Assembly: GCA_902595855.1 (NCBI GenBank)
Contig: CACJRY010000009.1
Location: 1-64,000, forward strand
DNA from: an uncultured Alphaproteobacteria bacterium
GTDB lineage: Bacteria > Pseudomonadota > Alphaproteobacteria > HIMB59 > GCA-002718135
Length of the DNA stretch: 64,000 bases
Direction: 5' to 3'
The position numbers and the translations under genes are program-made. The notes beneath the pieces were generated by a model, which was given only the letters and a program-made list of their open reading frames with translations, did not search any database and had not been told where the DNA came from. Below are positions 1,695 through 11,719 of this stretch, one piece after another (position 1 is the first letter of the stretch; every line of letters starts with the position of its first letter).

Positions 1695-2391
1695 AAATAA
1701 AGCTAAAGGAATTATATTATTTAATAAAATTTCATCAGAAAATAACTTATATTTAAAAATTTTAACTGACAATGATGAAATTGTAAGTGGTATAAGTTTT
1801 GGAGGATCAACAAGAAAGAAAAAAAACATTTATCAAGTCGGATTTTTTTTGAACTTTAATATTAAAGTGAAAAATGCAAATTTTCCAAAAAATATATCTG
1901 GTGAATTAACTGATCCTTACATTTATAATATTTTTGAAAATAAATATAAATTACATAGTTTATTATCAATAGTGTCTTTGTTAAATTTATCTATTATAGA
2001 GGGTCAAAAAATAAAAGGATTATATCAAACCACAAATGAAATTATTAACATAATATCAATTAAAGAAAATTGGTTAGTTGAATATTTTTTATATCTATTA
2101 AATTTGCTAAAATTAATAGGATATGAAATTGATTTTAAAAATAAAAATTCATTTAATTATCTTAATTTAGATACTTTACAGTTTACAAATAATTTATCAA
2201 ATAATGCAATTATTTTTCCTCATGATTTACTTAAAAGGTCGACTAAAATAGATTTAGCCAATGTTAATTCTTTTTTTAAACTTTTTGAGTTAATTTTGCA
2301 AAATCATCATTTAAATAATATGAATCTTAATATACCAATTAATTATCTGAAGTTTAAAAAACTAATTGTGGAATTTTTGTCAAAAAAATGA
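1687..2391 (+). CDS. recO: DNA repair protein RecO
   Basis: Recombination mediator that loads RecA onto SSB-coated single-stranded DNA in the RecFOR pathway. The 234-residue protein starts with the OB-fold pattern of RecO (KGIILFNKISSENNLYLKILT, followed by the G-G-S-T-R-K segment) and continues with the helical domain (the family's YxLHSLLSIVSLLN region). There is no cysteine, so the zinc site found in some RecO proteins is absent. Position between era and parC supports the call. It overlaps era by 8 bp and parC by 4 bp (ATGA). Confidence 0.85.
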   Translation: MTENKAKGIILFNKISSENNLYLKILTDNDEIVSGISFGGSTRKKKNIYQVGFFLNFNIKVKNANFPKNISGELTDPYIYNIFENKYKLHSLLSIVSLLNLSIIEGQKIKGLYQTTNEIINIISIKENWLVEYFLYLLNLLKLIGYEIDFKNKNSFNYLNLDTLQFTNNLSNNAIIFPHDLLKRSTKIDLANVNSFFKLFELILQNHHLNNMNLNIPINYLKFKKLIVEFLSKK

Positions 2392-4580
2392 AAAATATTA
2401 TTAAAGATAATATAAATGAAATATTAAAGTCTCGATATCTTTCGTACGCTGTTTCTACCATTATTTCAAGATCTCTTCCTGATTTAAGAGATGGATTAAA
2501 GCCCGTTCATAGAAGAATAATTTATTCTATGTATTTGTTGAAATTATTTAATAACTCACCTTTTAAAAAATCTGCAAGGATAGTAGGCGATGTAATGGGA
2601 AAATTTCATCCACATGGTGATCAAGCTATTTATCAAAGTTTAGTCAGGATGGCTCAAGATTTCTCTTCCAGGGTCACTTTAATAGAAGGGCAAGGCAATT
2701 TTGGCAATATAGACGGTGATAATGCTGCAGCTATGAGATATACAGAGGCAAGATTAGAAGAAATCACTGAACTTTTTTTTGATGGTATAGAAGAAGATTC
2801 TACGACATTTAGTGACAATTATGATGGTCAGAATTTAGAACCTGATGTCTTGCCATCAAAATTGCCAAATATTTTATTAAACGGATCAACAGGGATTGCG
2901 GTAGGAATGGCAACAAATATTCCGCCACATAATTTGATAGAATTAAATGATTGTATAATTAAGTTAATTAAAAAACCAAATACTCCTGACTCAGAGCTTT
3001 TAAAAATACTTAAGGGACCAGATTTGCCAACTGGTGGTGAGATAATATTAAGCAAAGCAGAAAAGAAAAAAATTTATAAGACAGGATTTGGCTCATTTTT
3101 AATTAATGCAAAATGGCATGATGAAAAAATTAAAAATGGTATGTATGAAATAGTTATTTCTGAAATACCTTTTCAAGTAAATAAAGTTAAAATTATCGAA
3201 CAATTAGCTAATTGTATAAACCAAAAAAAATTACCTCTAGAAGATGTTAGGGATGAATCAGATGAAAATATAAGAATTGTACTAAAGCCGAAAAACAGAA
3301 ATATAGATAAAAATAAATTAGTAGATCTATGCTTTAAGCTTACTGACTTATCTATTAAATACTCGTGTAATTTTAATGTTCTTGAAAACGGCCGTATTCC
3401 AAAACAATTAGGCTTAAAACCTATTCTTTCTCAATTTATTAATTTTAGAAAGTTGACTGTAAAGAGAAAATCAAAGTTTAATATTGATAAAAATAATAAA
3501 AGATTAGAAATATTAAAGGGCTATTTAATTGTTTTTGTAAATTTAGATAAAATAATAAAAATTATTAGAACAAAAGAAGATCCAAAAAAAGAGATTATAA
3601 AAATATTTAAGCTATCAGAAATACAAGCTGATGCGATTCTTAATATGAGACTAGGTTCGCTAAAAAAATTAGATGAATTAAATATTAGTAAAGAAATTAA
3701 AGAATTAAAAGAAATAAACTCATCTTTAAAAAAACTAATTAACAATGATAATTATCTGAGTAATTTTTTGATTGATGAAACAAGAATCATAAATGATAAT
3801 TTAAGTGATAATATTAAATTAAGGAGAACTAAAATTAATAATGCTGATGATTATGAATTAGATATTGATATTGATGAATTTACTGAAATAGAAAAATTTA
3901 CAGTATTGCTTACAAAAGATCATCTTTTGAAAAGAGTAAGAGATTTCTCAGATAATCCTCAAGAAAAAGATAGTAATATCGTGGCAGCTATCGATATTAT
4001 GTCTAACCAAAAACTTCTTTTATTTTTGTCATCAGGAAAAGTTTTAACACTTGATCCAAATATTCTTCCTGGAGGCAAAGCATCTGCAAAATCCTATATA
4101 GAATTTGTTGATGTGGGAGTAAATGAAAAATTAATAGGTGTGTTTAATCCTCACGCTCAAGATAAATTATTACTTGTATCTAAATTTGGAAAAGGTTTTA
4201 TTTCAATTGCAGAAAATATGATAACAAACCAAAAAAAAGGGAAAAACATCTTTCGCCTTAAAAATGGAGATGAATTATTAAAAGTTCATTTTGTTAACAA
4301 AAATCATCTTGCATTAGTATCAACGAATGAAAAATTACTTATTTTTGACATAGGCTCTTTACCAACTCTTAATAAAGGAACTGGGGTACAGTTAATGAAA
4401 ATCAAAAGTAATGACTCTTTATCAGATTATGCAATTATAGATACTGATGAAGGTTTATCTTGGAGCAAGGGTTCAAAAATAAAAAATCTTAAAGAGATTG
4501 AATTTTGGATTGGAAAAAGAGCACAAGTAGGTAAAAAAATCCCAAAAGGATTTAATAAAAATTTAAAATTTAATATTTAA
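2388..4580 (+). CDS. parC: DNA topoisomerase IV subunit A
   Basis: ATP-dependent type II topoisomerase subunit that decatenates daughter chromosomes with ParE. The breakage-reunion domain shows GKFHPHGDQAIYQSLVRMA (71-89) and the catalytic tyrosine Y118 in AAMRYTEARL. The length of 730 residues and the short C-terminal beta-propeller without a canonical GyrA box favour ParC over GyrA. The residues at the usual quinolone-resistance positions are Q79 and A80 after HPHGD, typical of alphaproteobacterial ParC. It starts on the recO stop codon and closes the rnc-era-recO run. Confidence 0.92.
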   Translation: MKNIIKDNINEILKSRYLSYAVSTIISRSLPDLRDGLKPVHRRIIYSMYLLKLFNNSPFKKSARIVGDVMGKFHPHGDQAIYQSLVRMAQDFSSRVTLIEGQGNFGNIDGDNAAAMRYTEARLEEITELFFDGIEEDSTTFSDNYDGQNLEPDVLPSKLPNILLNGSTGIAVGMATNIPPHNLIELNDCIIKLIKKPNTPDSELLKILKGPDLPTGGEIILSKAEKKKIYKTGFGSFLINAKWHDEKIKNGMYEIVISEIPFQVNKVKIIEQLANCINQKKLPLEDVRDESDENIRIVLKPKNRNIDKNKLVDLCFKLTDLSIKYSCNFNVLENGRIPKQLGLKPILSQFINFRKLTVKRKSKFNIDKNNKRLEILKGYLIVFVNLDKIIKIIRTKEDPKKEIIKIFKLSEIQADAILNMRLGSLKKLDELNISKEIKELKEINSSLKKLINNDNYLSNFLIDETRIINDNLSDNIKLRRTKINNADDYELDIDIDEFTEIEKFTVLLTKDHLLKRVRDFSDNPQEKDSNIVAAIDIMSNQKLLLFLSSGKVLTLDPNILPGGKASAKSYIEFVDVGVNEKLIGVFNPHAQDKLLLVSKFGKGFISIAENMITNQKKGKNIFRLKNGDELLKVHFVNKNHLALVSTNEKLLIFDIGSLPTLNKGTGVQLMKIKSNDSLSDYAIIDTDEGLSWSKGSKIKNLKEIEFWIGKRAQVGKKIPKGFNKNLKFNI

Positions 4581-4619
4581 CTTGTTTTCTAAATCAATTT
4601 AAGGAATATTATATTTATT

Positions 4620-5729
4620 ATGACAGCTGGGCTTAATACACAATCAAGTTTATCAATGAAAGGTGAGGGTTATTATTCCGCTAAAACTGCAGGTGCAAAG
4701 AATGCGATTGATAAAACACAAGAGCTACTTTTAAACTCTCTTAAAAGTTTACCTAAACAAGATATTCTTAGAATAGCTGATTTTGGTAGCGCTGATGGAG
4801 GCACAAGTCAAGAAATGTGGTTTAATATAATAGATAATATAAGATCATCTGGGGACGATAGACAAATAGAAATTTTGTATACAGATCTTGCTTCCAATGA
4901 TTTTTCAGTATTATTTAGAATGATGCAAGGTATGCAGGGTGATAAAAAATTTGCATTTCAAAAAGAATTTCCTAATGTTTTTGTTCATGGATGTGGAACA
5001 GGTTTTCACGAACAGCTGATGTCTAATAATAGCTTATCTCTGGGATTTTCGGCAACCGCTATGCATTATGTTTCAGAAAGACCATGTTTGATTAAAGATC
5101 ATGTCCATATGGTTGGGGCGAAAGATAATGAAAGAGATTTATTCAAACAACAGGCGCTAAAAGATTGGGAAAAAATTTTATTAAGCAGATCAAAAGAACT
5201 AATATCTGGAGGTCGGTTTGTTTGTATTAATTTTGGAATAGATGAAAAGGGCAGGTATCTAGGTAATACTGGTGGTCATAATATGTTTGATAATTTTGCC
5301 AAACATTGGAAAAGCTTAGAGACCAAAAATATTATTTCAAAAGATGAGTTTATAAACGCCACCTTTACCCAACATTATAGGACAGTTGAAGAGTTTATAA
5401 AACCATTTGATAATCCTAATTCAGAAGTTTCTAAATCTGGTTTAGTTTTAAATTCTTATAAAACAATGTTTACTGATTGCCCTTATAAGATTCACTATGA
5501 AAAAAATAAAAACACAATGACATCTCAAGATTACGCAAATACCTTAATTCCTACAATGCGTAGTTGGTCAGAAACAGTTTTTAAAACAGCATTACAAAAT
5601 AGAAATGAAAAAGAAATTAATAAAATAGTTGATGATTTTTATAACTCATACCAAGATGAGGTTTCTAGTAATCCTGATGGTCATGCTATGGATTATATTC
5701 ATATAGTTATGGATATTGAAAAAAAATAA
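4620..5729 (+). CDS. SABATH-family S-adenosylmethionine-dependent carboxyl methyltransferase
   Basis: Probably transfers a methyl group from SAM to the carboxylate of a small acid, giving a methyl ester. The 369-residue protein follows the layout of the plant SABATH family (salicylate, jasmonate and indole-acetate methyltransferases): an N-terminal GEGYYSAKTAGAKNAI segment, the SAM-binding loop ADFGSADGGTS at residues 53-63, the YTDLASNDF motif at 87-95 (plant proteins have a similar LPGNDFN), and an alpha-helical cap domain. It is a single gene 39 bp after parC, and its stop abuts the convergent TRAP permease gene. No substrate can be read from the sequence. Family assignment is from motif order only. 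Confidence 0.72.
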   Translation: MTAGLNTQSSLSMKGEGYYSAKTAGAKNAIDKTQELLLNSLKSLPKQDILRIADFGSADGGTSQEMWFNIIDNIRSSGDDRQIEILYTDLASNDFSVLFRMMQGMQGDKKFAFQKEFPNVFVHGCGTGFHEQLMSNNSLSLGFSATAMHYVSERPCLIKDHVHMVGAKDNERDLFKQQALKDWEKILLSRSKELISGGRFVCINFGIDEKGRYLGNTGGHNMFDNFAKHWKSLETKNIISKDEFINATFTQHYRTVEEFIKPFDNPNSEVSKSGLVLNSYKTMFTDCPYKIHYEKNKNTMTSQDYANTLIPTMRSWSETVFKTALQNRNEKEINKIVDDFYNSYQDEVSSNPDGHAMDYIHIVMDIEKK

Positions 5730-8375
5730 TTAGAAATATAAAGATATATCTTCGTGTGATGATTTGCATCTAGCTAGGTATACAGCCTGCTCTTTATTTA
5801 AACTATCTTGTTTTCTTAAACCAAAAGTTTCCTCTCCTAATTTAGATAGTAAAATAAAATCCTCTAATAAAATATCTTTAGCTTTTAATCTCCAGAATAT
5901 TTCTTTTTCATAAATTAATTTACTTTCCATGATTAATTCTAGAGCTTCAGATTTTTTATCATAGTTTTTCTTTAATAATTTTCTAGCATTTTTAATTGTT
6001 TTTTTAATATTAGACACTTGATTAAATTTATTGAATTTTCTCTCAAAATCCTTCAGTTGGTCAGAGATATTTTCATCCTCTTTTTCTATTTTATTAAAAA
6101 TTTTATCAAAACTATCTTCTATTAAAAAAAGACCTTCTAGGTTTTTAAAAATTTCAATAAATTCCATCAATTCATTAAAAGAGTTATCAACTGTTTTATT
6201 ATATTTTAACTTAGTTTTATTATATTCGTTAAGAATATTGTTAAATTCACTATTTTCACTTTCCCAATTACTTGGGATTGTCATTTTAATTTTTTCAATC
6301 TCATTTTGATATTCTAGAATTTCACTATCTAGTTTTTCAATTTTAGTTGGATCAATCTCCAGCCTAATTTCTTTTTTAATTTTTTCAATTTTATTAAGTT
6401 TTTTATATATGTCTTTTTCTAATCTTCTTACTTTTGTATGTAAAGGTTTGTAATTAATAGAGTAATCATTAAAATTTGACTCAGATATTTTCACTTCATC
6501 AATTAAATTTTTAGATGATCCTATACCAGATATCATGTCTGAGATTTTTTTAGACTGTGGTTCAGGAATAAAACTTAAATTATAGGAATTTATTTTTGTA
6601 ATCAGATTATTTGTTTCTGCAAAGGTTAATATATATTTATCATAAGTATAATCAAATAAACACTCCTGTAATTTGGGATTAATTGGGGGTGGGGCAACTT
6701 CAGAAGAGTAATATGATCTTAAAGGCAAGTAATTTACTAATTGAGGAAAATATCCAACTATTCCTAAACCAACTAATTGTAAGAAAATAAATACACTTGC
6801 ACCCTTCCAAATTTCAGTTGTTTTAATTGATTTAGGAGCAACACCTCTTAAATAGAATAAAGAAAATCCAAAAGGGGGAGTTAAAAAAGAAGTCTGCATA
6901 TTAACACCTATCATAACACCTAGCCATACCGCTGTTATATTTGCTGATGTTTCTGCAAGTAGTATCGGAGCAACTATTGGCACTACCACAATTGCTATTT
7001 CTATAAAATCTAAAAAAAATCCTAAAATAAAAATTACTGCCATTACTACTATAAATTGAGTCCAAAAACCTCCTGGCAGCCCTGTAAGAAAATCTTTAAC
7101 AATTTCCTCACCCCCAAAACCTCTAAATGCAGCAGTTAACATTGCAGCACCAATGAGGATAATAAATACCATTGATGTCGTTAAACTAGTTTCTATCATC
7201 ACATTTTTAAGAACATCATTTATTCTAAAAGTTCTCCAGAAACTCCAAACAATACCTAAGACTAAAAAGAACACAGCTAAAGTTGCACATAAAACTGCAG
7301 TCAATTCTGATGAAGTATTGATAGTTTTTATATTTAAATCAAAATTTGCAACAAGAATTGTAATTAAGATCAAAGAAATTATTGTCACAATGGCTGGCAC
7401 GTACTTTAGTTTACCTTCACCATAAAGCCTATAACTTCCCATAACTCCTGCGCCAACAGCGCCTATGGCACCAGCTTGATTAACAGTTGCGACACCCATT
7501 AAAATAGAACCAAGAACTACAAAAATCAGTGCTAATGGGGGTACTAGGGATAAGAACACTTTCCTAAAAAAAATAAAATTATAATTTCCTTCATATTTAA
7601 CAGGTGGAACTGCATTTTTTTTAAATATACCAACAAAGAGAACATAAATCATATATAATGAAACCAGAACCAATCCTGGAAGAAAGGCTCCTAAAAACAT
7701 ATTTCCTGCACTTACGGACTCTACACTAAATTGACCGGGTATATTCATAGACCCTGTAGCATTTTTGTAATCTAATCTTCTCATATTATCTGCAGCATCT
7801 GAAGCCGTTGCTAATTGATCAGCTAAAATTATTAAAACAATTGATGGAGGGATTATTTGACCTAACGTACCTGATGAACATACAATTCCTGAAGCTAAAG
7901 ATTTATCATAATTATTTTTCATCATTGCGGGTAAAGAGATTAATCCCATAGCAACAACAGTTGCTCCAACTATACCTGTTGTAGCAGCTAATAATGCTCC
8001 TACAAAAATAACTGAAATTCCTAAACCTCCAGGCATTGGACCAAAAAGCTGCCCCATACTTATAAGTAAATCTTCTGCAATCTTAGATTTTTCAAGCATT
8101 ATGCCCATAAAAATAAATAGTGGAATTGCTATTAAAGTATCTCTCTCAACTTCCCAATAAACACCTCTAAAGTTTGTTATACCAGCATTTAACCATTGAA
8201 ACGGACCATCAGAAATAAAATATTCATTAGCGTTACCTTCAATTAAATATCCAAATAGGCCAGCCAACATAATTGTTATAATTGCAGAGCCAGGTAAAGC
8301 AAAAGCTAATGGAAATCCTGAAGCCAACGCAAAGGCCATTACAAATATTAATAAAAAAAGAAAAAATAATTCCAT
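5730..8375 (-). CDS. dctM: TRAP transporter large permease (DctM) with long C-terminal extension
   Basis: Membrane subunit of a tripartite ATP-independent periplasmic importer driven by an ion gradient. Residues 1 to about 550 are a typical DctM permease with many membrane segments, including the GALLAATTGIVGATVVAMG and QIIPPSIVLIILADQ blocks near 125-190 and the MQTSFLTPPFGFSLFYLRG block near 493-511. The last 320 residues (about 560-881) are hydrophilic and rich in Lys, Glu, Asn and Ile with long heptad-like stretches, so they look like a coiled coil. I do not recognise that tail. Length is far above the usual 425-620. It follows the DctQ and DctP genes on the same strand, 1 bp after DctQ. 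Confidence 0.9.
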   Translation of the reverse strand: MELFFLFLLIFVMAFALASGFPLAFALPGSAIITIMLAGLFGYLIEGNANEYFISDGPFQWLNAGITNFRGVYWEVERDTLIAIPLFIFMGIMLEKSKIAEDLLISMGQLFGPMPGGLGISVIFVGALLAATTGIVGATVVAMGLISLPAMMKNNYDKSLASGIVCSSGTLGQIIPPSIVLIILADQLATASDAADNMRRLDYKNATGSMNIPGQFSVESVSAGNMFLGAFLPGLVLVSLYMIYVLFVGIFKKNAVPPVKYEGNYNFIFFRKVFLSLVPPLALIFVVLGSILMGVATVNQAGAIGAVGAGVMGSYRLYGEGKLKYVPAIVTIISLILITILVANFDLNIKTINTSSELTAVLCATLAVFFLVLGIVWSFWRTFRINDVLKNVMIETSLTTSMVFIILIGAAMLTAAFRGFGGEEIVKDFLTGLPGGFWTQFIVVMAVIFILGFFLDFIEIAIVVVPIVAPILLAETSANITAVWLGVMIGVNMQTSFLTPPFGFSLFYLRGVAPKSIKTTEIWKGASVFIFLQLVGLGIVGYFPQLVNYLPLRSYYSSEVAPPPINPKLQECLFDYTYDKYILTFAETNNLITKINSYNLSFIPEPQSKKISDMISGIGSSKNLIDEVKISESNFNDYSINYKPLHTKVRRLEKDIYKKLNKIEKIKKEIRLEIDPTKIEKLDSEILEYQNEIEKIKMTIPSNWESENSEFNNILNEYNKTKLKYNKTVDNSFNELMEFIEIFKNLEGLFLIEDSFDKIFNKIEKEDENISDQLKDFERKFNKFNQVSNIKKTIKNARKLLKKNYDKKSEALELIMESKLIYEKEIFWRLKAKDILLEDFILLSKLGEETFGLRKQDSLNKEQAVYLARCKSSHEDISLYF

Positions 8376-8376
8376 T

Positions 8377-9300
8377 TTATTCCTCTTTGATAATATTAAG
8401 GCTTCTTAAAAAATAGACCACGAATTGAATTAACATTGTGAGTGCAAAAATTATAAGAAAACCTGCCATTAAATATTTTATATTCATACCTTGCGTACTT
8501 TGTGATGTTTCAAAATTCATTATAGGCTGGTTTAAAACACATTGTTTGCATGCCATTCCTTTTAGAAAAATAGTAAGACAAAGAGGAATACCTAAAATCA
8601 AACTTCCAAATAAATTGATCTTTGCTTTGTTTTTTTCTGTAAAATTTGTGTAAAGTACATCTACTCTTACATGACCATCTTTTATTAAGGTGTAATAACT
8701 TCCAAATAAAAATAGACTTCCATACCAAAATCGAACGAGATCACTCATCAAAGTTTGTTCATATGAAAATACAAATCTCAATACAACAATTTGAAATTCA
8801 GCAACAACAACCAAAAATGCTAACCAGAAAAAATTAAGTTTTTTAAAATAGTATCCTAGTAAAAGAGAAATAAACAAGAGTGGAAAATGTATATAAGGGG
8901 CTCTAAATGAGTTATTTGAAAATTTGACATTCCAGCTTTTACCAAACAACATTTCTATGAAACCTTCAATGATTAGTAAAGAAATTATAGCATCTACAAC
9001 TCCTATGATTAATACTGACCAGAAAGCAAAACGAATTATGTATTCATTAAGTCCTTCTAAAAAATCAGCTAAACGTATTATTGTAAAATTTTGTTTATAA
9101 AAAAAAACTATATAAATTGGAAATAAAATTACTATTAAATACAAACTAAATTGCAAAATAGAATAAATATTTAAATCATTTGCGATTGAAAAAGCGCCAG
9201 GCCAATCCCCAGCAAATGTTAAATAGTTATTAATTAAAAAAGCAAATACATAAAGCACAATGCCAACAGAAAAAAACTTTGCTAAACTAAATGTATTCAT
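8377..9300 (-). CDS. dctQ: TRAP transporter small permease (DctQ), long form
   Basis: Small membrane subunit of the same TRAP importer. The diagnostic DctQ block is RFWYGSLFLFGSYYTLIKDG followed by HVRVDVLY in the second half. At 307 residues with about eight hydrophobic segments it is much longer than the usual four-helix DctQ of about 170 residues; long forms are known from the mannitol/chloroaromatic-type TRAP group. It lies between the binding-protein gene and the large permease gene, and its stop is 1 bp from the DctM start. Confidence 0.85.
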   Translation of the reverse strand: MNTFSLAKFFSVGIVLYVFAFLINNYLTFAGDWPGAFSIANDLNIYSILQFSLYLIVILFPIYIVFFYKQNFTIIRLADFLEGLNEYIIRFAFWSVLIIGVVDAIISLLIIEGFIEMLFGKSWNVKFSNNSFRAPYIHFPLLFISLLLGYYFKKLNFFWLAFLVVVAEFQIVVLRFVFSYEQTLMSDLVRFWYGSLFLFGSYYTLIKDGHVRVDVLYTNFTEKNKAKINLFGSLILGIPLCLTIFLKGMACKQCVLNQPIMNFETSQSTQGMNIKYLMAGFLIIFALTMLIQFVVYFLRSLNIIKEE

Positions 9301-9308
9301 AAGATAGT

Positions 9309-9329
9309 AGTGGGGATTAAATCCCCACT
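9309..9329 (-). terminator. Intra-operon hairpin between dctP and dctQ
   Basis: A perfect inverted repeat AGTGGGGAT/ATCCCCACT with a loop of a few bases lies just downstream of the binding-protein gene and ends 9 bp before the dctQ start codon. It is GC-rich against an AT-rich background. No T-run follows, so I read it as a transcript-end stabiliser or partial terminator that favours the binding-protein mRNA, not as a full terminator. Confidence 0.6.
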
Positions 9330-9341
9330 AAAAGATAAAAA

Positions 9342-10448
9342 TTAACCCTCTAAGACTCTTCGTCTTTGAGCAGTATAACCATGATCGGCAATTTTTAACC
9401 AGTCGCCAATATCACTTCTAGCTTTCTTGAAACTTTCTAGAATTCGTCCAGTTAGTTCATTACCTTCTGCTAATTCAGCATAAAGTTCTTCAGAAGCTTC
9501 ACCCATTGCATCAATTACATCATCGTTAAACTCTCTAAGCTCAACACCATGATCATTAATTAGTCTTTGAAGTGCAGCACCATTGTTAGCGTTGTACTCT
9601 GTAAGCATCATTTCATTTTGCACTGTTGCAGCATGCTCAATAATCATTTGATCAGTTTTGCTTAGACTAGTTAGCCAAGATTTATTACATCCAAGAGTGA
9701 TTAATGTTCCAGGCTCGTGCATACCAGGCCAATAGTAGTATTTAGCTGCTTCATAGAATCTAGATCTCTCATCATTCCATGGACCAACCCATTCACATGC
9801 GTCAATAGTACCATTGATAAGGTTTTCATAAATCTGTCCGCCAGGCATTCCTACAACAGAGGCACCAAGTTTAGTTATCATCATACCACCTAAACCTGGC
9901 ATTCTCATTTTAAGACCCTTCCAATCATCAGGTGAGTTAATTTCTTTATTAAACCAACCTCCCATTTGAACTCCAGAGTTTCCAGCCATAAAGTTTTTTA
10001 GTCCAAACTCATCACCAAGTTCATCCCAAAGTTCTTGTCCACCTCCATGTCTAATCCAACCATTAATTTCAGTTGCAATTAAACCAAATGGAACTGATGC
10101 AAAGAAACCCCATCCAGGGTGTTGTCCAACCCAATAATAATCTGCACTATTGTACATTTGTGCGTTACCAGAAGTTACTTCTGTGAAAACATCAAGTGGC
10201 CCAACTCTCTCACCACCGGCATAGTGGTTTACAACAATTCTGCCATCACTTAGATCTGAGATTCTCTGTGATACTGCTTCACCACCTGTTCCAAGTCCTG
10301 GATATCCCCGACCCCAAGTAGCAACACAGTTAACCTCAATTCTGTCTGCAGCTATTGCTGGAGCAGGAAAAGAAGATACGGCAGTAGCTGCGGCAGCTGC
10401 AACACCTGCTTTTTTTATGAAGTCACGTCTTTTAAAGTTTTTTTTCAT
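9342..10448 (-). CDS. dctP: TRAP transporter substrate-binding protein, TakP/DctP type, Tat-exported
   Basis: Periplasmic binding protein that delivers a carboxylate-type ligand to the DctQM permease. The 368-residue precursor begins with a twin-arginine signal (RRDFIKK, then a hydrophobic stretch ending AIA). The mature part has the ACEWVGPW-like pattern (here CEWVGPWNDE) and YYYWPGMHEPG, typical of the group that includes the alpha-keto-acid binder TakP; the ligand here is not certain. A strong ribosome binding site (GGGAGG on the minus strand) precedes the ATG. Codon use appears more biased than in the permease genes, as expected for a highly expressed binding protein. Confidence 0.88.
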   Translation of the reverse strand: MKKNFKRRDFIKKAGVAAAAATAVSSFPAPAIAADRIEVNCVATWGRGYPGLGTGGEAVSQRISDLSDGRIVVNHYAGGERVGPLDVFTEVTSGNAQMYNSADYYWVGQHPGWGFFASVPFGLIATEINGWIRHGGGQELWDELGDEFGLKNFMAGNSGVQMGGWFNKEINSPDDWKGLKMRMPGLGGMMITKLGASVVGMPGGQIYENLINGTIDACEWVGPWNDERSRFYEAAKYYYWPGMHEPGTLITLGCNKSWLTSLSKTDQMIIEHAATVQNEMMLTEYNANNGAALQRLINDHGVELREFNDDVIDAMGEASEELYAELAEGNELTGRILESFKKARSDIGDWLKIADHGYTAQRRRVLEG

Positions 10449-10486
10449 ATGTCCTCCCGAAAAATATGAATATTTATAAATAAATC

Positions 10487-10513
10487 CTACACCTAATTGA
10501 TAAAATTAGGTAG
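10487..10513 (-). promoter_or_regulatory. Hairpin between gcdH and dctP
   Basis: ACCTAATT and AATTAGGT form an 8-bp inverted repeat with a 5-nt loop, and flanking CTAC/TAG bases can add pairs after a small bulge. It lies about 40 bp upstream of the dctP start and about 30 bp downstream of the gcdH stop, both on the minus strand. It could end the gcdH transcript or shape the dctP leader. The T-run after it is weak. Confidence 0.4.
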
Positions 10514-10543
10514 AGAATTTTTAATTTAAATAATCAATTAATA

Positions 10544-11719
10544 CTAAAAACTTGCAATTCCAGTCTGATTTTTTCCAAGAATTAGGGAATGAATATTCTC
10601 AGCACCTTCGTATGTTTTTACTGTCTCTAAATTTACGAGGTGTCGCATAATATGATACTCCTCTATCAGTCCATTTGCACCAAGCATATCTCTACAGTCT
10701 CTCACTATATCAAGTGATTTTTTGCAATTGTTTCTTTTCAAAACTGAAATTGCATTAATAATATTTTTATCATTATTCATTGCATTCGCAGTTAATAAAC
10801 ATGATGATAGTCCAAGATTAATTTCTGTTTGCATGTCAGCAAGTTTTTTTTGAATCAATTGATTTGCAGCCAAAGGCTTTTTAAACATAATTCTGTTCTC
10901 AACATAATCTTTTGCAATTAACCAACACTCAGTTGCTGATCCCAAAACACCCCAACTTATTCCATATCGGGCTTTGTTTAAACAGCTAAATACAGAACTC
11001 CAACCTTTTGTGTATTCAAGACAATTCGAATTTTTTACAAAAACTTTATCAATAATAATTTGACCTGTTGGGCTAATTTTTAAACTCGTTTTATTTTCAA
11101 TAGATTGTGTTGATAAACCTTTGATACCTTTATCTAGAATAAATCCCTTGATCGAATTTGCTTCATGTTTTTCATTTAAAGCCCAAATAATAAATACATC
11201 TGCAATTGGTGAGTTTGTTATCCAATTTTTACTACCATTTAAAACATATCCATCCTTTTGTTTGCTATACGTTGTTTTCATAGATGATGGATCTGATCCT
11301 GCTTCACTTTCTGTTAAACCAAAACAGCCAATTTTATTTCCAGATATTAAGTCAGGAAGGTAATTATTTTTTTGCTCTTCAGAACCAAACTCATTAATTG
11401 GATGAATTACTAAAGAAGATTGTACTGAAATTGATGATCTATAACTACTATCCACTTTTTCAATTTCATAATTTATAAGACCATAGGCAGTATTAGACGC
11501 TGCAGCGCCACCGTAATTTTTAATTGTTGCGCCAAGAATACCTAATTTCCCAAATTCTTTGTAGAGTTCTCTATCAAAAAAATGATCATGATTATATTTT
11601 ACTACATTTGGCCTAAGTTCAGTATTGCAGAATTGTTTTACATTTTTTTGAATAAGTTTGTCCTCTTCTAATAAATTTTCAAAAATAAAAAAAGGGTCAA
11701 ACCATGTATTTTGTTTCAT
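10544..11719 (-). CDS. gcdH: Glutaryl-CoA dehydrogenase
   Basis: FAD enzyme that oxidises and decarboxylates glutaryl-CoA to crotonyl-CoA at the end of lysine, tryptophan and some aromatic degradation routes. The 391-residue protein matches the GCDH subgroup of acyl-CoA dehydrogenases: VDSSYRSSISVQSSLVIHPI near residue 90 (with the substrate-binding Arg), CFGLTESEAGSDPSSM, KNWITNSPIADVFIIWA, and the C-terminal TYEGAENIHSLILG with the catalytic Glu, ending TGIASF. It lies upstream of the TRAP genes on the same strand and is divergent from rpiB. Confidence 0.92.
   Translation of the reverse strand: MKQNTWFDPFFIFENLLEEDKLIQKNVKQFCNTELRPNVVKYNHDHFFDRELYKEFGKLGILGATIKNYGGAAASNTAYGLINYEIEKVDSSYRSSISVQSSLVIHPINEFGSEEQKNNYLPDLISGNKIGCFGLTESEAGSDPSSMKTTYSKQKDGYVLNGSKNWITNSPIADVFIIWALNEKHEANSIKGFILDKGIKGLSTQSIENKTSLKISPTGQIIIDKVFVKNSNCLEYTKGWSSVFSCLNKARYGISWGVLGSATECWLIAKDYVENRIMFKKPLAANQLIQKKLADMQTEINLGLSSCLLTANAMNNDKNIINAISVLKRNNCKKSLDIVRDCRDMLGANGLIEEYHIMRHLVNLETVKTYEGAENIHSLILGKNQTGIASF

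Follow-up and report, generated by a model that had tools for sequence, protein, structure and literature searches.

SABATH methyltransferases have, to our knowledge, been studied almost wholly in plants, and a gene for such a protein in a marine alphaproteobacterium raises the question of what the enzyme would methylate there. The gene is present in the window, by which we mean the whole stretch of 64,000 nucleotides analysed here, derived from an uncultured alphaproteobacterium of a clade that we take to be AEGEAN-169/HIMB59-like. A sequence-only reading of this locus had described the product as a plant-like carboxyl methyltransferase of a type rare in bacteria, which a streamlined genome would not keep without a role. 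The results presented below support this interpretation of the gene as a whole in part.

A SABATH-fold gene of bacterial kinship

The open reading frame occupies positions 4620..5729 of the + strand, from an ATG at 4620 to a TAA at 5727-5729, and comprises 369 codons, none of which is an internal stop. It starts 39 bases past the end of a parC-like gene, an AAGGA sequence (read by eye) is located about a dozen bases 5' of the ATG, and the reverse strand of the gene contains many stops. The dN/dS values calculated against two relatives with 96-97% identity were 0.08 and 0.10, similar to those obtained for parC (0.08 and 0.09). We conclude that the gene is real and that it is under purifying selection.

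The 369-aa product matched the Pfam family Methyltransf_7 (PF03492) with an E value of 8e-32. The score was 111.1 bits, the family cut-off being 29.8, and the match spans residues 46-367 of the protein and positions 12-334 of the profile. Methyltransf_7 was the sole Pfam family above cut-off, so the profile search did not move the protein to another methyltransferase family, an outcome which the sequence-only reading had named as contrary to its SABATH assignment; no NCBIfam model matched the protein. The nearest solved protein by sequence was the fatty acid O-methyltransferase of Mycobacterium marinum (FAMT; PDB 5f2k, E 6.7e-20; further entries 5f2n and 5f2o), with loganic acid methyltransferase (LAMT) second at 2.3e-8 and salicylate methyltransferase (SAMT; PDB 1m6e) at 0.0037. 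An AlphaFold model built with ten homologues (pLDDT 82.6, pTM 0.84) was then compared with solved structures. Against the SABATH structures listed it gave Z scores of 27.6-35.8 over 310-348 residues, while the best other fold reached 18.6. The values were 35.8 for FAMT (5f2k; 347 residues, rmsd 2.9), 31.9 for an N-methylating SABATH enzyme of the caffeine synthase branch (6lyh), 31.2 for SAMT, the comparison that had been proposed beforehand, and 30.5 for LAMT (6c8r); the comparison identified a Rossmann domain and the SABATH helical cap across the full length of the model. Profile and fold matches therefore establish that the product is a SABATH-fold enzyme. Its nearest kin are bacterial however: among solved proteins a mycobacterial enzyme matches best, and the close relatives belong to the Alphaproteobacteria. 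"Plant-like" is therefore a poor and misleading description.

A single scan across species genomes yielded 353 confirmed relatives, and we examined 80 of these loci. The titles of these include uncultured marine alphaproteobacteria, SAR116/Puniceispirillum, Rhodobacteraceae single cells, Acuticoccus and Amorphus; two loci titled Euryarchaeota and Porticoccaceae (L104 and L143) fit the window's genus and SAR116, and are probably mis-binned. A PF03492 match was present in 38 of the 162 genomes of the window's order, every one of them in the window's genus, and in 13 of 385 genomes of the class. The profile of alignment A1 matched in 23/136 genomes of the order of a SAR116 genome (G542), and relatives were found in 26/347, 10/61 and 3/196 genomes of the orders of G549 (Acuticoccus), G189 and G544, respectively. 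Thus, rarity in bacteria holds in the sense that the distribution is patchy, but not as regards the number of relatives. No relative was detected in the viral contigs searched. These statements on kinship cover bacterial genomes, viral contigs and solved structures, and a closer algal relative is possible. Among open papers on bacterial or marine SABATH enzymes we found none on this clade, which is weak evidence.

Residues of the putative substrate site

Conservation was analysed in an alignment of 58 rows, in which the window was joined by 57 representatives (clustered at 80% identity), with the distant L066 kept as an outgroup. In the SAM-binding loop (residues 53-63, ADFGSADGGTS; 4776..4808, + strand) residues D54, G56, A58, D59 and G61 are invariant. 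In the D..ND-F motif characteristic of SABATH enzymes (residues 87-95, YTDLASNDF; 4878..4904, + strand) D89 and D94 are found in 58/58 rows and N93 in 57/58. Both motifs, like the reading frame, are located exactly where the sequence-only reading had placed them.

The clade profile was aligned with the solved structures, and the residue equivalences that follow rest on this sequence alignment. The codon at 4695..4697 (+) encodes A26, which in the profile alignment to 1m6e and 5f2k takes the position of the carboxylate-binding Gln (SAMT Q25, FAMT Q31, LAMT Q38). The codons at 5064..5069 (+) encode H149-Y150, aligned with LAMT H162-W163, FAMT Q154-W155 and SAMT M150-W151. Q25 and W151 are the carboxylate-binding Gln and Trp of SAMT; the roles of Q31 and W155 in FAMT are deduced from the alignment, and Q154A is a solved mutant (5f2o). 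Position 26 is Ala in all 58 rows and Gln in the outgroup, and position 149 is His in all 58 rows and Gly in the outgroup. Position 150, the site of the carboxylate-binding Trp, is Tyr in 45 rows, including the window, and Trp in 13; the outgroup has Tyr. Residues R314, D358, H361, H161 and N204 are invariant across the 58 rows. The Gln of the carboxyl-methylating subgroup (SAMT Q25, LAMT Q38) thus appears to be replaced by A26, and its Trp (SAMT W151, LAMT W163) by Y150 in the window. H149 aligns with LAMT H162, a His that is not family-wide, since SAMT has Met and FAMT has Gln there.

According to a study on LAMT (PMC10420828), the carboxylate is held by His162, Trp163 and Gln38, and mutants H162A and W163F are nearly inactive, with negligible activity for W163F. 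As the equivalents of Q38 and W163 are replaced and that of H162 is kept, the clade retains one of the three LAMT carboxylate anchors. The sequence-only reading had stated in advance that a lack of the carboxylate-binding residues would speak against it; this lack is half borne out, the Gln and the Trp having been exchanged and the His having been kept.

FAMT is bacterial and has the SAM and ND-F motifs in common with the window's protein, but shares only 20% identity with it, and its Gln31, Gln154 and Trp155 correspond to Ala26, His149 and Tyr150 here. LAMT (19% identity) resembles it in the fold and in the aligned His, but differs in Gln38 and Trp163, and serves a plant alkaloid pathway. SAMT (16% identity) has the same fold and motif order but differs at all three positions (Gln25 to Ala26, Met150 to His149, Trp151 to Tyr150). 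Because the site residues of the plant carboxyl methyltransferases and of FAMT appear to be absent, we would class the protein as SABATH-like in fold and cofactor use, and not with either of these groups. Judged by the alignments, it is a member of a bacterial branch apart from the plant enzymes, with an altered active site of its own.

Association with a TakP-type TRAP transporter

The most informative feature of the locus, absent from the sequence-only reading, is the TRAP transporter that adjoins the gene. The dctM gene, encoding a large permease of 881 aa (5730..8375, - strand; Pfam DctM, 3.7e-63), is convergent with the methyltransferase gene, and the stop codons of the two genes abut (sequence at 5727-5732). 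It is accompanied by dctQ (small permease, 307 aa; 8377..9300, - strand; Pfam DctQ, 1.6e-10) and by dctP, whose product is a TakP-type solute-binding protein (368 aa; 9342..10448, - strand; Pfam DctP, 3e-48; PDB TakP 2hzk, 1.3e-71). Residues 560-881 of DctM (5733..6698, - strand), located past the permease, are predicted to be all-helical (alignment A3; model pLDDT 88.6), a long tail that distinguishes this transporter from the TakP TRAP. The TRAP which replaces this one in other genomes of the genus (see below) has a DctM of 457 aa; the extra part of the window's DctM is C-terminal, is predicted to form long helices, and ends in the conserved motif GLR.Q..L and a terminal F.

The report on TakP of Rhodobacter sphaeroides (PDB 2hzk, 2hzl; PMC1839085) describes binding of 2-oxo monocarboxylates together with a cation via Arg177, Tyr100, Gln156, Glu214, Trp215 and Glu240. 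The window's DctP keeps all six residues (Y100, Q156, R177, E214, W215, E240; YQREWE), as do the DctP proteins of other genus members, SAR116 and L067; those of Acuticoccus and Amorphus have Asp at 214 and Phe at 215 (TakP numbering). The lining of the cavity partly differs from that of TakP, for instance at Phe40 (Trp in the window), Val97 (Ala) and Pro243 (Thr). Since the six residues are kept, the likely cargo of the window's TRAP would be a small 2-oxo or similar acid. The replacing TRAP, however, also keeps all six, and these residues therefore do not explain which TRAP needs a methyltransferase; the predicted cargo would not single out the substrate of the enzyme.

The cassette is flanked on the left by the parC-like gene (2388..4580, + strand; presumably parC, a name given from its place and look), which adjoins the site both in relatives that have the cassette and in those that lack it, and on the right by an acyl-CoA dehydrogenase gene (acd; 10544..11719, - strand; Pfam), present whether or not the cassette is. 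We considered acd as part of the cassette and rejected this, as acd stays when the cassette is gone. In genus members for which enough flanking sequence was available, the genes are arranged rnc-era-recO-parC-SABATH, followed on the opposite strand by dctM-dctQ-dctP-acd and then by rpiB-glyA. Within the window's order, a DctM match was obtained in 38/38 genomes with the methyltransferase gene, versus 11/124 without it. In four of these 11 (G070, G079, G108 and G125) the contig ends within dctM, and a fifth (G126) is a short fragment, likewise at the edge of a contig. Three more belong to another family and match weakly, and the remaining three (G127, G128 and G133) are sister genera. In G133 and G127 this extended TRAP occupies the corresponding place with the methyltransferase missing, and between TRAP and parC there is either nothing or, in G127, an SDR gene; G128 is cut.

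Among 30 same-genus genomes lacking the gene, a search for the flanking acyl-CoA dehydrogenase was positive in 21. The site contained another TRAP (dctP ~42% identical) in 18 of the 21 and none in three. Six of these negatives were examined further, and all six showed dctQ (167-181 aa)-dctM (457 aa) convergent with dctP, and no methyltransferase. In one of the three empty sites (G003; locus L241, 2772-2964) SABATH codons 1-49 directly adjoin dctP codons 2-15, a scar left when a deletion removed the rest of the cassette. The same site thus contains the extended TRAP with the methyltransferase, another TRAP, or neither, and the region from parC to acd (4581-10543) is therefore a cassette-exchange site at which the methyltransferase accompanies one kind of TRAP. 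It is plausible that a streamlined genome would keep such a gene only for a role, but the gene is missing from many genomes of this genus, where another transporter takes its place.

The association is not limited to the genus. In SAR116 the order dctP-dctQ-dctM-SABATH, on one strand, was found in 11 of the 80 loci examined, one of them cut inside dctM; the methyltransferase gene is followed by a 3-hydroxyisobutyrate dehydrogenase-like gene in 11/11 and by a gamma-glutamyltransferase (GGT)-like gene in 9/11. The order is dctQ-dctM-dctP-SABATH in Acuticoccus and Amorphus and SABATH-dctP-dctQ-dctM in L067, and these same-strand runs, like those of SAR116, look like operons. SABATH-dctP is present in L213 and L229, and dctP-SABATH in L220 and L221. 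A TakP-like TRAP lies near the gene in 17 of the 58 tree rows, and the quick tree that we used, in which 10 forks are open, requires no fewer than 6 changes for this pattern. Two TakP-like rows, L187 (30% to TakP, at a distance of 7.6 kb) and L149 (24%), had been removed from this count beforehand because the six residues are absent. A TakP-type DctP was located at most 5 kb from the gene in 14 of 36 positive genomes of two orders, compared with 0.31 expected at random. Treating related genomes as independent overstates this contrast, and both orders were picked once TRAP neighbours were known to occur in them. This set excludes 15 hand-picked genomes out of 51, adjacency was scored by eye from coordinates, and without three seed genomes known beforehand (G189, G548 and G549) the count is 11/33. 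Together, this recurrence provides good support for a functional tie between methyltransferase and TRAP. The transporter is not obligatory however, since no TakP-type TRAP was counted near the gene in 41/58 rows, and other branches have other neighbours.

Among these, other SAR116 genomes have no TRAP but a run hydrolase-GGT-DUF1330-NMO-CoA ligase-RraA-SABATH; in L120 (3204-11101) it reads abhydrolase-GGT-DUF1330-NMO-CoA ligase-RraA-like-SABATH, with the methyltransferase last. A role as oxamate amidohydrolase was considered for the SAR116 GGT-like neighbour and discarded, the best solved match being another GGT-family protein (2nlz). Genes for an M19 peptidase, a 560-aa protein that belongs to no known family, a DUF3726 protein and an Ldh_2 dehydrogenase are found near the gene in several genomes of other orders, and in Acuticoccus and Amorphus this set is present alongside the TRAP. 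The M19, 560-aa and DUF3726 proteins may be linked to glycine betaine or dimethylglycine breakdown, and a search of the literature on DUF3726 and PA5396 yielded no paper. The three were dropped as a clue to the substrate, as the 560-aa protein also occurs in same-genus genomes without the methyltransferase (G003, G112 and G063). In L231 (own genome C1), a ~569-aa protein (8758-10467) adjoins an M19 dipeptidase-like gene (10488-11465), and the pair lies beside an ABC transporter and a DAO-family oxidase. Homologues of this ~569-aa protein gave no Pfam or NCBIfam match; pairs of this type recur near the methyltransferase in other orders, and also in genomes without it. Furthermore, the gene that immediately precedes the methyltransferase gene in L131 encodes a nicotinamidase-family hydrolase (above the PRK11609 cut-off), of which L141 and L187 have homologues. 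In L229 a neighbouring gene encodes a sarcosine oxidase beta-family protein (above the TIGR01373 cut-off), and fatty acid hydroxylase-family genes lie near a few relatives (L127, L148 and L145).

Candidate substrates and implications

The repeated siting of the gene beside an organic-acid importer suggests that the imported acid, or a product thereof, is methylated. We give nearly an even chance to the reading that the enzyme carries out SAM-dependent methylation, most likely of a carboxylate, of an acid that is imported by the adjoining TRAP or made from such an acid. The enzyme would be a cytoplasmic small-molecule methyltransferase acting as partner of the TakP-type TRAP. The acid taken up by the importer would be a small monocarboxylate of the 2-oxo (or 2-hydroxy) type. 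The methyl group of SAM would go to its carboxylate, or to that of a close product, and this carboxylate would be held by His149 and Tyr150 in place of the plant Gln-Trp pair. The product would be a neutral methyl ester, which the cell may retain, hand on or lose by volatilization. Points against this reading are the exchanged Gln and Trp, the 41 rows in which no TakP-type TRAP was counted near the gene, the sister genera that have the TRAP alone, and the replacing TRAP, in which the six TakP residues are conserved as well.

A rather unlikely alternative is that the protein is an N-methyltransferase, as in the caffeine branch, whose target would be the nitrogen of an imported or scavenged N-containing acid such as a pyridine carboxylate or an imino acid. 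If a nitrogen is methylated, the carboxylate-binding Gln is not needed, which would fit its exchange for Ala in 58/58 rows, and the N-methylating structure 6lyh matches the model well. Neighbours that act on nitrogen compounds, namely the nicotinamidase-family and sarcosine oxidase beta-family proteins, M19 and Ldh_2, are found in some branches but are absent beside the window's gene; moreover, the His of the carboxyl-methylating LAMT is kept, and the linked TRAP is of the 2-oxoacid-binding kind. It is unlikely that gene and TRAP travel together merely via the parC-acd exchange hot spot, with a substrate unrelated to the TRAP. Such an explanation could draw on the exchange of whole cassettes at this site, on the sister genera that have the TRAP without the enzyme, and on the majority of relatives without a nearby TRAP, but it does not account for the fact that the pair recurs away from this site with its genes ordered differently, in some cases as operon-like runs on one strand.

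The two remaining alternatives take the known enzymes of this fold as their guide. FAMT is the closest solved relative in both sequence and fold, and an O-methyltransferase acting on fatty acids or 3-hydroxy fatty acids, as in M. marinum, would agree with this; we consider it quite improbable nonetheless, as identity over the fold match is ~20% and FAMT Q31, Q154 and W155 are all replaced. Besides, the additional conserved residues of the clade (H149, H161, R314 and D358) are polar or charged, which would suit a small polar ligand better than a fatty acid, and lipid genes are absent beside the window's gene, the fatty acid hydroxylase-family genes being near few relatives. Synthesis of a volatile or hormone ester of the plant type (salicylate, benzoate, indole-3-acetate or jasmonate) is very improbable, for while the fold is the same, the plant enzymes are more distant than the bacterial FAMT, and the Gln and the Trp are replaced.

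Methylation of an acid supplied by the TRAP is accordingly the reading that we prefer. In a more specific form, which we regard as doubtful, marine alphaproteobacteria would combine a dedicated TakP-type TRAP importer with a SABATH enzyme having a His-Tyr site that methyl-caps the 2-oxo or related acid at once, and this couple would be gained, swapped and lost as one module. If so, the methyl cap may stop the acid from leaking back, detoxify it, or yield a volatile ester. What is new here is the gene context, namely the recurrent link to a TakP-type TRAP of a widespread bacterial SABATH branch with a changed substrate site. The clade offers a clear comparison for substrate change within the SABATH fold, and the couple lends itself to a concrete and cheap test (bind, methylate and measure the ester) of what would be an unstudied carbon transformation in the surface ocean.
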